NCBI GenBank assembly: GCA_022841365.1
Contig: JALHRP010000034.1
Location: 1-44,133, forward strand
Reading direction: 5' to 3'
Length of the DNA: 44,133 nt
From: Chitinophagaceae bacterium
Lineage (GTDB): Bacteria; Bacteroidota; Bacteroidia; Chitinophagales; Chitinophagaceae
Part shown: positions 7,609-44,133 of the stretch, piece after piece
Layout of the letters: the number at the start of each line of letters is the position of its first letter
How positions within the stretch are numbered: the first letter of the stretch is position 1
Program-made: the position numbers and the translations under genes
The notes under the pieces: model-generated
Database searches by the model: none
What the model was told of the DNA's origin: nothing
The model's input: the letters and a program-made list of their open reading frames with translations, nothing else

Positions 7609-7679
7609 TTTCAGGTTTAAAGTTGAAGGTTGTATATGAACCTTCAACTTTAAACAATTCAACTTTAAACTTCTGAAAT
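7609..7679. repeat. Nested inverted repeat between eno and the ftsB-like gene
   Basis: The left arm GTTTAAAGTTGAAGGTT (7615-7631) pairs perfectly over 17 bp with 7639-7655 around a 7-nt loop. A second copy of the right half (TTCAACTTTAAAC, about 7659-7671) is followed by CTGAAA, which can pair instead with the outer left TTTCAG. Two mutually exclusive foldings are therefore possible. There is no T tract, so it is not an ordinary terminator; it looks like a dispersed palindromic intergenic repeat. Confidence 0.7.
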
Positions 7680-41815: not shown

Positions 41816-42116
41816 TCCCGTATAAAAATCCAACTCCATTCCTTGCTATAGTAGGCCGCACCGCTTGTTGGTGCGGCTTTTTCATTTACATTTGCACATC
41901 ATTCAGGCGGATTTGTTTATTGTTCGGCCAAACGGAACTAATAAACGTCAACAAAACTCTCAACCGGTTTTCCCAAACGTTTATAGTTCAATTTGCCTGT
42001 TTGTAGTATGCAACACTGCAACCTTCAACATCTGTTGTGAACTTGCGCTGTTTTTATTTATACTGTCAACTGTTTTTGCTTTCAGGCAACAACAGCCGGC
42101 AGCAAATTATTGAACT
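41816..42116. other. Gap before the methionine synthase gene
   Basis: 301 bp holding a strong terminator (41855-41884) and one AAACGTTT palindrome (41975-41982), the same core as near acs. I looked for cobalamin and SAM-I/SAM-II riboswitch signatures, which often precede metH, and saw none. The frame at 41865-42113 is not protein-like. Confidence 0.4.
41855..41884 (+). terminator. Terminator of the lipocalin-like gene
   Basis: GCCGCACC (41855-41862) pairs with GGTGCGGC (41870-41877) around a 7-nt loop, followed by five T. It closes the lipoprotein transcript. Confidence 0.9.
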
Positions 42117-43253
42117 ATGGACATCAGAAAAGAACTCGAAAAAAGAATCCTCGTTATTGATGGTGCCATGGGCACTATGATCCAGCGGCATAAACTGCAG
42201 GAAGCCGATTACCGTGGCGAACGTTTCAAAGACTGGCATTGCGATGTAAAAGGCAATAACGATCTGTTGAGCATTACACAACCGCAGATCATTACCGGTA
42301 TTCACAAACAATATTTAGATGCAGGTGCCGATATTATTGAAACCAACACATTCAGCAGTACCAGTATTGCTCAGGCCGATTATGATATGCAATCATTGGC
42401 CTATGAATTAAATGTTGCTTCAGCAAAATGTGCAAGGGCAGCCATTGATGAATACAAAATCCAAAACCCAACTAACCAGGATCCAAAATTTGTTGCCGGT
42501 GCTATCGGCCCGTTGAATAAAACTTTATCACTTTCACCCGATGTAAATAATCCGGGTTACCGTGCAGTTACGTTTGATGAAGTGGTAACTGCTTATTACG
42601 AACAGATCAAGGGGTTAGTTGATGGCGGTGTGGATGTATTGTTGATTGAAACGATTTTCGATACACTCAATGCCAAAGCAGCCATCTTCGCTATTAAAAA
42701 ATATTTTCATGAGCATCCATTAAATCCATCCGCCGCTGGCGGAAGGACTTCTTCAATCGCACAAAGTGAGGTTAACGAAGAACAACAAAATCTCAGAACG
42801 GATGGGGCTGTGCAAGGACAAATCCCCCCTTTGGGGGGTGGGGGGGCCGAACTGCCGATCATGATCAGCGGAACGATCACTGATGCAAGTGGAAGAACCT
42901 TGAGCGGACAAACACTTGAAGCGTTTTATATTTCCGTGATGCATGCAAATCCATTAAGTGTCGGCTTGAACTGTGCATTGGGTGCACATGAAATGCGTCC
43001 GCATATTGAAGAGTTATCGCAGATCGCTTCTTGCTATGTATCTGCTTATCCTAACGCCGGTTTACCAAATGCAATGGGTGAGTACGATGAAAATCCGGAA
43101 GACACCGGACACTATTTAGAAGAGTGGGCAAAAGAAGGCTGGGTGAATATTGTTGGTGGATGTTGCGGTACCACGCCTGATCACATCAAACATATTGCAG
43201 ATCATGTAAGGAAATTACAACCGAGAGAATTACCGGTAGTGGAACAAGTTTAA
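42117..43253 (+). CDS. metH: Methionine synthase N-terminal module (homocysteine S-methyltransferase), with in-frame insertion
   Basis: A 378-residue protein equal to the homocysteine-binding module of cobalamin-dependent methionine synthase, as a separate polypeptide. Seen: [80 protein letters not shown], and zinc ligands C286, C349 and C350 ([14 protein letters not shown]). The 63-residue spacing between C286 and C349 equals the spacing recalled for E. coli MetH (247 to 310), but C286 is 39 residues later. The extra residues lie about 203-244 and match a palindrome-rich insertion in the DNA. The catalytic core is otherwise intact. The cobalamin- and folate-binding half is encoded downstream after the GxxExxY unit. 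Confidence 0.93.
42721..42848 (+). repeat. Palindromic repeat insertion inside the metH N-terminal gene
   Basis: In-frame stretch with two hairpins: TCCGCC (42729-42734)/GGCGGA (42738-42743), and CCCCCC (42824-42829)/GGGGGG (42833-42838) followed by another run of G (42840-42846). It encodes a low-complexity, Gly/Ser/Gln/Asn-rich segment that ordinary MetH proteins lack. It resembles the dispersed GC-rich palindromes of Bacteroidota intergenic regions, here inside a gene. The exact insertion limits are estimated. Confidence 0.7.
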
Positions 43254-43259
43254 CAAACG

Positions 43260-43732
43260 TTGAACCACGAAGACACAAAGTTCTCAAAGTAACACGAAGG
43301 ATATGTATAAAACTCTAAGCGAACGGGAAGAATTCCTTGCAAGACAAATCGTTGATATAGCTATCAGGGTTCACAAAGAGCTTGGCCCCGGATTATTAGA
43401 AAGTGTGTATGCAAAATGTTTTTATTTTGAATTAACACAAAGAGAAATATCCTTTCAAAAAGAAAAAGAAGTTCCTGTTATTTATCAAACGTTAAAAATA
43501 GATGACGGACTTCGCTTAGATCTTTTAGTTGATAATTTAATTATTGTAGAGTTTAAAGCACATGAAAATTTTCATCCTGTTTGGGAAGCGCAAATTCTGA
43601 GTTACCTGAAATTGTCTCAGAAAAGATTAGGCTTCCTTCTCAACTTCCATGTGCCTTTAATGAAAGATGGAATTAAACGGATAATCTTATAAACTTAGTG
43701 CCACTTTGCGCCTTTGCGTCTTAGTGGTTCAA
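43260..43732 (+). mobile_element. GxxExxY unit with ~40-bp imperfect inverted repeats
   Basis: A 473-bp unit between the two metH halves. The left end (43260-43299) starts TTGAACCACGAAGACACAAA. The right end (43694-43732), read on the other strand, starts TTGAACCACTAAGACGCAAA. The first nine bases are identical, and about 32 of 40 positions agree with one indel. Both ends show a CAAAG-type motif repeated every 8-10 bases. The GxxExxY gene fills almost the whole interior. No clear target duplication could be confirmed (ACAA-like bases flank both sides). Confidence 0.65.
43303..43692 (+). CDS. GxxExxY family protein (PD-(D/E)XK-like fold)
   Basis: A 129-residue protein with the name-giving motif GLLESVY (about 30-36), preceded by [12 protein letters not shown] nuclease-like core follows, [15 protein letters not shown] (about 71-85), with the acidic residues and lysine of a PD-(D/E)XK site, then [11 protein letters not shown]. 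The C-terminus is [18 protein letters not shown]. Members occur in many copies in Bacteroidota genomes by my recollection; the function is not established, and nuclease activity is a fold-based guess. The gene fits tightly between the inverted repeats (start 4 bp inside the left, stop 2 bp before the right). Confidence 0.9.
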
Positions 43733-43741
43733 ACAATACAT

Positions 43742-44133
43742 ATGAGCGTTATAAAACCATACAGCCGCTTTTCAGGATTAGAACCATTAGTTGTTCGACC
43801 CGAAACTAACTTCTTAAATGTAGGTGAGCGTACCAACGTAACCGGTAGTAAAAAGTTTGCACGCCTTATTCGTGAAAACAAATACGAAGAAGCGCTAAGC
43901 ATTGCCCGCCAGCAGGTAGAGAACGGTGCACAGATCATTGATGTAAACATGGATGATGCATTGCTCGATGGTGTACATGCCATGACCACGTTCATCAACC
44001 TGATGCAAAGCGAACCCGACATTGCGAAGATTCCGTTGATGATTGATTCATCAAAATTTGAGATCATTGAAGCAGGTTTGAAATGTGTGCAGGGAAAAAG
44101 TATTGTAAACTCCATCTCCATGAAAGAAGGAGA
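43742..44133 (+). CDS. metH: Methionine synthase C-terminal module (partial, runs off the right edge)
   Basis: Open from the ATG at 43742 through 130 codons to the window end. It begins [16 protein letters not shown] and contains the folate (pterin)-binding domain of Met[21 protein letters not shown] (about 24-43), [18 protein letters not shown] (about 61-78) and [29 protein letters not shown] (about 99-127). The cobalamin-binding and reactivation domains should follow outside the window. With the N-terminal module on its own gene, the enzyme is a two-polypeptide MetH, a known layout in Bacteroidota. The start lies 10 bp after the right end of the GxxExxY unit, so that unit's insertion affects the operon spacing. 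Confidence 0.93.

Follow-up and report, generated by a model that had tools for sequence, protein, structure and literature searches.

Between two metH genes in a 44,133-nt stretch of DNA from a Chitinophagaceae bacterium (contig JALHRP010000034.1; hereafter the window) lies a single gene of 129 codons, belonging to the GxxExxY family and enclosed by inverted arms of about 40 bp. Do gene and arms form one mobile unit and, if so, what moves it? The unit occupies 43260–43732, and its parts and neighbours are as follows.

42117–43253, forward strand: host gene upstream, homocysteine S-methyltransferase half of metH (site context; profile matches)
43260–43299, forward strand: left word-arm, TTGAAC overlapping four words at 43266–43272, 43274–43280, 43283–43289 and 43293–43299, with spacers of 1, 2 and 3 nt
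43303–43692, forward strand: GxxExxY gene, 129 aa, PD-(D/E)XK fold, ATG at 43303, stop codon at 43690–43692
43694–43732, reverse strand: right word-arm, four words (in forward coordinates) at 43720–43726, 43712–43718, 43704–43710 and 43694–43700, with spacers of 1, 1 and 3 nt
43742–44131, forward strand: host gene downstream, start of the remaining metH part (pterin-binding domain; profile matches), cut by the window end

The left arm ends 3 nt before the start codon, and 1 nt separates the stop codon from the right arm. Over their outermost 21 nt the arms are 90% complementary, and each contains four 7-nt words of the form CNCNAAG. An inverted-repeat scan of the window at one threshold returned the element arms and one small hairpin at 7615–7655 (a short perfect hairpin, GTTTAAAGTTGAAGGTT, with 17-nt arms and a 7-nt loop); at the same threshold, no arms were found in one block-shuffled window. 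Coordinates, profiles and arm scan agree with the first-pass annotation, in which a nuclease-fold gene of 129 codons had been described as tightly flanked by imperfect inverted repeats of about 40 bp. The CAAAG repeats that it had placed every 8–10 bases are present, and in place of loose spacing they form 7-nt words with regular spacers. The end word AACCACNAAGNCNCAAAG has two exact copies in the window, one at each end of the element; with up to three mismatches allowed it matched 4 times where 2.0 would be expected, a chance-level number (20 of 100 shuffles). The unit lies between protein genes and not in 23S rRNA, with no rRNA match in window positions 42100–44133, and an Rfam identity was rejected on a match at chance level.

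The encoded protein matched NCBIfam TIGR04256 (GxxExxY; 135.2 bits, cut-off 35) and Pfam PF13366 (PDDEXK_3; 128.9 bits, cut-off 22), the only profiles in those two collections to do so at E 0.001. Rpn nucleases are PD-(D/E)XK proteins, and membership of that family (PF04754, Rpn/transposase_31) was rejected, with no profile match at E 0.001. G30, E33, Y36, D73, E83, K85 and Q97 are invariant in 54 GxxExxY sequences; Y101, nearly invariant in the first 22 sequences, is absent from the invariant list of the 54. E33, D73, E83, K85 and Q97, with Y101, are the PD-(D/E)XK set with a QxxxY-like pattern, the latter being typical of the RecB/Cas4/lambda-exonuclease branch. The AlphaFold2 model of the window protein is confident (mean pLDDT 93.4). 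Foldseek against the PDB gave weak matches only, the best being to LHK-Exo, lambda exonuclease and SSO0001 (E 0.013 to 0.04), of which we take the last to be a Cas4; a sequence search for solved chains gave one match, at E 0.6. From these comparisons we infer that the protein is probably a nuclease. GxxExxY genes were found in 50 of 99 genomes that sample the phylum evenly. There was no match in 50,697 phage records and none in PHROGs, 7 of 72,556 plasmid records had one, and a link to defence was rejected on weak Cas4 and PtuA matches only. The protein tree, which is built on 125 columns, mixes phyla and therefore suggests that GxxExxY genes may have spread horizontally.

For comparison of the two ends, the 220 nt upstream of each gene were matched to the reverse complement of the 220 nt downstream at 115 loci. 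Of these, 35 came from the own genome and its relatives, and the other 80 were the best of at least 569 confirmed relatives in a named collection, a sample that leans to the window's kin. Five loci with short or masked flanks were dropped. An own-end match of at least 32 was reached at 57 of the remaining 110 loci, compared with 3.8% of swapped pairs, and 53 loci fell below 32. For the comparison within genomes, 40 further loci were brought in; of 75 loci, L004–L006 and L041 were left out and two were dropped for short or masked flanks. This left 69 loci in 28 genomes, of which 36 reached 32. Among swapped pairs the share was 1.6% when both arms came from one genome (190 swaps) and 2.5% otherwise (4502 swaps). 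Where a genome contained more than one element, 54 of 57 elements beat their own same-genome mean swap (p = 4e-13).

The words were then counted with a two-sided criterion: three or more CAC/CGC/CGG words within 120 nt, with both sides represented. Such words were found at 79 of 115 GxxExxY loci and at none of 97 stretches 700–820 nt away; the remaining 36 loci comprised 8 with other words (AACGG, GATT), 13 with words on one side and 15 with none. The first-pass suggestion that the flanking words recur around GxxExxY genes elsewhere is borne out by these counts and by the matched ends. Records with matched ends came, among the matches listed, from Bacteroidota, Planctomycetota, Pseudomonadota, Chloroflexota, Acidobacteriota, Verrucomicrobiota, Spirochaetota and a Nostoc. 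The end words vary between elements, while both ends of one element agree; this had gone unnoticed at first pass, as had the gene-less hairpins and single arms with such words and the like architecture of S23 genes, all described below.

Letter by letter, this agreement was examined in the 80 of 155 elements that have at least two C[AG]C..AG words (first letter C or T) in both arms. Positions 3, 6 and 7 are fixed here by the search pattern, and were nearly fixed in a separate alignment that was itself seeded by the pattern in one arm. At position 5, opposite arms agree at 0.79; in comparisons with other elements the figure is 0.36 within the genome and 0.46 in general. The corresponding values at position 2 are 0.80, 0.42 and 0.52. 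Positions 4 and 8 are nearly free, with 0.50 and 0.41 between opposite arms, 0.43 and 0.27 within the genome and 0.37 and 0.35 in general. Spacers recur as well. Counted from the outer end, with GxxExxY arms and hairpins pooled, the first is 1 nt in 127 of 160 chains, and in 134 of them the second is 1 or 2 nt long; for the third, 61 of 77 chains have 3 nt, 24 of these from G022 (relatives are denoted by G numbers, loci by L numbers).

Pairing of the arms as a stem would be expected to leave a trace in the free letters of words that face each other. An apparent excess at positions 4 and 8 in an earlier alignment was biased by the alignment step, and the letter and facing tests are relied on here. 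Across 31 GxxExxY elements, facing and non-facing words agree at 0.53 and 0.47 at position 4 (p = 0.40) and at 0.51 and 0.45 at position 8 (p = 0.40). Since the free letters of facing words agree no more than those of non-facing words, stem pairing or arm-to-arm copying is unsupported, and stem pairing was rejected as the force that keeps the arms alike. Thirteen hairpins of G022 do have a facing excess at position 8 (0.43 versus 0.26, p = 0.03), which fits a family-specific spacer. Because the spacers recur, the letters are element-specific and the free letters carry no pairing signal, our reading is that the words are recognized singly by a putative sequence-specific factor in a set register.

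The letters also follow the protein. On the protein tree the position-5 letter needs 9 changes against 22.9 when shuffled and the position-2 letter 14 against 23.5 (0 of 300 shuffles as low for either), and the position-4 letter needs 24 against 27.8 (6 of 300). With sequences filtered at 70% identity, position 5 needs 6 changes versus 13.8 (0 of 300), and positions 4 and 8 each gave 15 of 300; the position-5 signal is weak at 60% (5 versus 6.2, 49 of 300) and gone at 55% (300 of 300). Position 2 keeps some signal at 60% (7 versus 9.4, 21 of 300) and 55% (4 versus 6.6, 6 of 300), and its choice of A or G tracks locus GC (mean 0.45 for CAC loci, 0.53 for CGC loci). The four CGG-word elements lie on one side of a branch with FastTree support of 96. 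By these patterns gene and arms travel together; because the position-5 tie is lost at the 60 and 55% filters, it may reflect co-inheritance only. A direct code between residues and letters, with candidates in the first helix such as position 14, was rejected, as the position-5 link vanishes at lower identity.

The metH gap was followed through 14 genomes of the genus, the own genome included. Seven contain GxxExxY elements, one a lone arm and one another gene, and five are without an intact arm. The seven elements, all with arms, fall into three unlike protein groups: those of G000, G012, G004 and G001, with proteins 88–95% identical; that of G013, 56–60% identical to this group; and those of G002 and G008, 78% identical to each other and 36–56% to the rest. 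The single arm is in G010, and G009 has a YhcG-like nuclease gene with DUF1016_N and YhcG_C domains. Gaps of 22–56 nt with no intact arm are found in G003, G005, G006, G007 and G011, those of G003 and G007 looking like a decayed arm. Outside the genus, a lone arm lies beside metH in G017 and G029, and the gap holds an S23 gene in G043 and, in G053, a GxxExxY remnant below the family cut-off. G013 and the window share 98% identity over the start of metH at the protein level but only 56% in GxxExxY, so that these are separate arrivals or replacements. The C-terminal half of metH is an open frame of its own in the genus, 900–934 codons long, with and without an insert (the own copy is cut by the contig end). 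Close relatives that lack the element have the same two genes, so metH was already in two parts before the element arrived and was not split by it; the location between the halves of metH, given at first pass, stands. Two minor features of the upstream gene may be recorded: an in-frame stretch at 42720–42850 in which CCGCCGCTGGCGG and CCCCCCTTTGGGGGG are repeated, NCBIfam profiles for metH matching in two stretches, and LPDAS tandem repeats in the metH N-half of G009.

Hairpins with the window's words and no gene are also found in the own genome, for example one of 76 bp at G000:C4:113536-113611. The CAC-type pattern gave 376 hits in 23 of 59 relatives, and its reversed control 13 hits in 11 genomes. 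Of 42 genomes that have a GxxExxY gene, 22 contain words (5 of the 22 by a single hit), as does 1 of 17 that lack the gene (p = 0.0009). With at least three hits the counts are 16 of 42 and 1 of 17 (p = 0.013), with at least five 11 of 42 and 1 of 17 (p = 0.15), and with at least three outside the window's genus 6 of 28 and 1 of 17 (p = 0.23). Counted by genera the figure is 11 of 28 with the gene (p = 0.017), single hits carrying much of the co-occurrence. As single hits are at the level of the reversed control, the apparent co-occurrence of words and gene is suggestive at most. CGG-word hits per genome average 7.0 with a CGG-type gene and 2.6 without (p = 0.048), a weak difference between six and nine genomes. 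A profile search of the 17 gene-negative genomes found no GxxExxY gene over the cut-off.

Two genomes are rich in words. G029 has 25 hits and no GxxExxY gene; in six stretches read there, arms surround unrelated interiors and arms in direct orientation occur, and because of these unrelated interiors a fixed-unit model does not fit in G029. G022 has 157 hits, mostly CACTAAG words among the matches listed, and of its three GxxExxY loci the two that were read both lack CACTAAG arms. Thirty G022 loci were read and yielded 15 distinct two-armed hairpins. Three of these hairpins (L328, L345 and L347) have a common interior at unrelated flanks, and therefore the hairpin was copied as a unit. Target duplications, a further mark of mobility proposed in the first-pass annotation, failed to appear: for the 15 G022 hairpins the values are 2.27 nt for own and 1.79 nt for swapped pairs, not beyond chance, and none was evident by eye at the five sites described next. 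By eye, the arms of L279, a GxxExxY locus of G022, resemble a second repeat type seen at L324, L337, L341 and L342.

Five hairpin sites were followed across the genus. At site 4, hairpins with the window's words are present in G000 and G012 and other word-hairpins in G001 and G002; G010 (L216) and G011 (L217) have an S23 gene with 7-nt arms, adjoining an apparent right-end remnant of a former CAC-word hairpin, and G003, G007 and G013 have short gaps. Sites 5 and 3 hold unlike word-hairpins in different species, or none. Site 2 has a hairpin in G001, G003, G004 and G010 but not in G002 or G011. In G007 and G013 it is occupied by some 800 nt of other sequence; G000 and G012, matched by their left flank alone, look alike. 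At site 1 the hairpin is kept in G001, G003, G004, G007, G010 and G013. There (L239–L241, L243, L196) an ORF opens with an in-frame CAC-word hairpin that by eye reads like a signal peptide, with a basic NRTTKSQRHK followed by a hydrophobic FFVLLSVLSAFVV; its place is taken in G011 (L242) by another array, one of ACTTTTT words. Gene-less copies with both ends are thus dispersed and the hairpins polymorphic, and single arms also occur. Presence and absence at orthologous sites were seen at the metH gap and at hairpin sites 2–5, although some empty sites may be deletion remnants. The comparison of empty and filled sites recommended for this element accordingly found both kinds; repeats confined to this gene, or one arrangement in all relatives, had been named as grounds for doubt, and in fact arms recur around other GxxExxY genes and empty sites exist.

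S23 genes (TIGR02436), which encode four-helix bundles, were found to have the same design. In the same relatives, 30 S23 loci were fetched, of which two were too short, and some are apparently orthologous copies and so not all independent; 15 of 28 have an end match of at least 32, compared with 2.4% of swaps. A 7-nt period is present in 54% of 56 S23 arms and 0% of shuffles. In the same lag test 8% of 225 GxxExxY arms scored at lag 8, against 0.9%, followed by lags 10 and 9; they are far less regular than S23 arms because their spacers vary.

Taken together, the paired ends, their recurrence, presence and absence at orthologous sites, the common hairpin interior and conservation at the level of words make it almost certain that 43260–43732 is a paired-end element. 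It is a discrete miniature element, whose family includes gene-less hairpins (arm, short loop, arm) and single arms; it is real and recurrent, in the style of REPINs and MITEs, with an unusual protein and end design. On the best reading it operates in the manner of REPIN/RAYT or MITE systems, though through another protein. Each word would be recognized by a sequence-specific factor, for which the GxxExxY protein itself is the likeliest candidate; its active site, of lambda-exonuclease/Cas4/RecB type, may nick or trim the hairpin. Processing could take place while the hairpin is single-stranded, on the lagging strand for example, and would allow copies to enter other intergenic sites with no target duplication; hairpins that lack a gene would be served in trans. 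That GxxExxY is the mobiliser is our tentative proposal, to which we give slightly less than an even chance: G022 and G029, with many arms and no cognate gene found, count against it, as do the weak co-occurrence of words and gene, the unrelated G029 interiors, the failure to find target duplications and the 53 loci below 32, and as S23 genes, which are non-nucleases, have the same design, catalysis by the resident protein may not be needed.

The two arm-rich genomes and the S23 design also favour a different division of labour, in which the hairpins are moved by another enzyme, from host replication or repair or a transposase, and GxxExxY genes merely ride between the arms. The weak co-occurrence of words and gene, and a metH gap that also accepts an S23 gene (G043) and a YhcG-like nuclease gene (G009), point the same way. 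Against it, end words track the protein clade down to the 70% identity filter, and they differ among elements within a genome, which a single shared host enzyme leaves unexplained. The best known candidate enzyme fares poorly too. Y1 transposase genes occur in 45 of 59 relatives, yet none of 30 Y1 loci has two or more CAC/CGC words on both sides, for which reason RAYT was rejected as the mover; 9 of 29 Y1 loci have matched ends of their own, by eye GC-rich palindromes, and there is no Y1 match in G007 and G035, which have 14 and 3 word hits. No known transposase lies inside the unit, as had been remarked at first pass. A passenger role for the gene is on this balance rather unlikely, while deserving serious weight.

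Less probable still is homing, in which the nuclease would cut a gene-less arm or hairpin and repair from a gene-bearing element would copy the gene in between the arms, in the manner of homing endonucleases, the arms being a target and not transposon ends. The metH gap does hold a lone arm in G010 and, beyond the genus, in G017 and G029, and some gaps look decayed; its GxxExxY proteins are unlike (36–60% between groups) beside metH starts 83–100% identical to that of the window, and an empty hairpin and a filled element have the same two arms. Homing requires target words that match beforehand, yet the words are element-specific, and the six sites compared gave no orthologous pair of an empty and a gene-filled hairpin. 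We regard it as a poor prospect beside the REPIN-like or MITE-like reading, and consider it very doubtful that the unit acts at the RNA level, with arms that form a transcript stem for processing or stability, as in 23S rRNA intervening sequences, and with mobility incidental. The element transcript does fold with its arms paired (−119 kcal/mol, z = −3.96), and the S23 ORF of the Coxiella 23S intervening sequence also lies between terminal inverted repeats (PMC4990558). The free letters at positions 4 and 8 have no facing-word excess in the 31 GxxExxY elements, however (position 8 of the G022 hairpins does, p = 0.03), and arms also occur singly and as direct repeats. That hairpins lie between genes would suit ordinary terminators or inverted repeats arisen by chance, a reading that can be dismissed with near certainty in view of the shuffled-window, distance and same-genome-swap controls, the 376 pattern hits against 13 reversed, the position of the window element between two metH genes and the hairpin inside an ORF.

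How does a paired-end element of this REPIN-like or MITE-like kind compare with known systems? In REPIN/RAYT systems short arms occur as singlets and inverted doublets, the latter as extragenic hairpins, and the gene is flanked by the same repeats (PMC3116915). GxxExxY-type repeats likewise occur as singlets and hairpin-forming inverted doublets that also flank the gene. The protein here, by contrast, has a PD-(D/E)XK fold (PDDEXK_3) and is not a Y1 (HUH) transposase; the arms are 7-nt word arrays with recurrent spacers, whereas those of the relatives' Y1 genes are by eye GC-rich palindromes; and the arm words change with the element. Terminal inverted repeats, dispersed gene-less copies with both ends and presence or absence at orthologous sites recall MITEs, from which the family differs in its single arms, in the lack of a known transposase and in that no target duplication was found (15 G022 hairpins; sites 1–5 by eye).

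Intervening sequences of 23S rRNA occupy a helix of that molecule and are excised by RNase III. They carry a small S23 ORF between terminal inverted repeats and are called selfish, with mobility suggested (PMC4990558). S23 genes of the relatives also have word arms; the present unit differs in lying outside rRNA, in its unrelated protein and in words at 8–10 nt, not 7. Rpn (recombination-promoting) nucleases are comparable as a nuclease family tied to RecA-independent DNA mobility (PMC5350276), and a preprint presents them as phage defence (PMC10327210); GxxExxY belongs to another family. The TAACTGA heptamers known from Beggiatoaceae, cyanobacteria and Bacteroidetes are 7-nt words, mostly intergenic as here; they are direct repeats with a single inverted case, and their author raised the possibility that a repeat-binding protein might itself be the mobile element (PMC4679880). 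That text has no mention of S23, four helix or nuclease. The open-access literature searched yielded no description of such elements and no described GxxExxY function.

The tie between GxxExxY and paired word-arms gives a testable role to genes present in half of the phylum sample. If the proposal is true, the family would be a PD-(D/E)XK-linked counterpart of REPIN/RAYT, would explain many of the repeats seen between genes in Bacteroidota and other phyla and, with the S23 family having the same architecture here, would connect to the old puzzle of 23S rRNA intervening sequences. More speculatively, and with rather less confidence than is given to GxxExxY as mobiliser, word-array hairpins may form a general class of minimal mobile DNA with inverted arms of short tandem words. 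Each class would be tied to one small word-reading protein, and the protein family would set the word period, which is 8–10 nt with the nuclease fold of GxxExxY and 7 nt with S23 four-helix bundles. Classes would compete for the same intergenic spots in operons, replace each other between species and sometimes be domesticated, one apparently now being a signal peptide.

Some loci depart from the usual arrangement. L004, L005 and L006 are GxxExxY genes of the own genome from a distant subgroup (31–34% identity), with GATT-type words at two of them. At L350 (G087) two adjacent GxxExxY genes occupy one gap, and their end words are by eye unlike. A GxxExxY domain is fused to the N-terminus of a RecQ helicase (L348, 298–2934; L349, 2504–5140), in G083 in a protein of 878 aa confirmed by profile, and the fusion may have arisen by insertion upstream of recQ. 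An ORF of G109 is on reading closely similar to this fusion, and G093 has a match in a frame of equal length.
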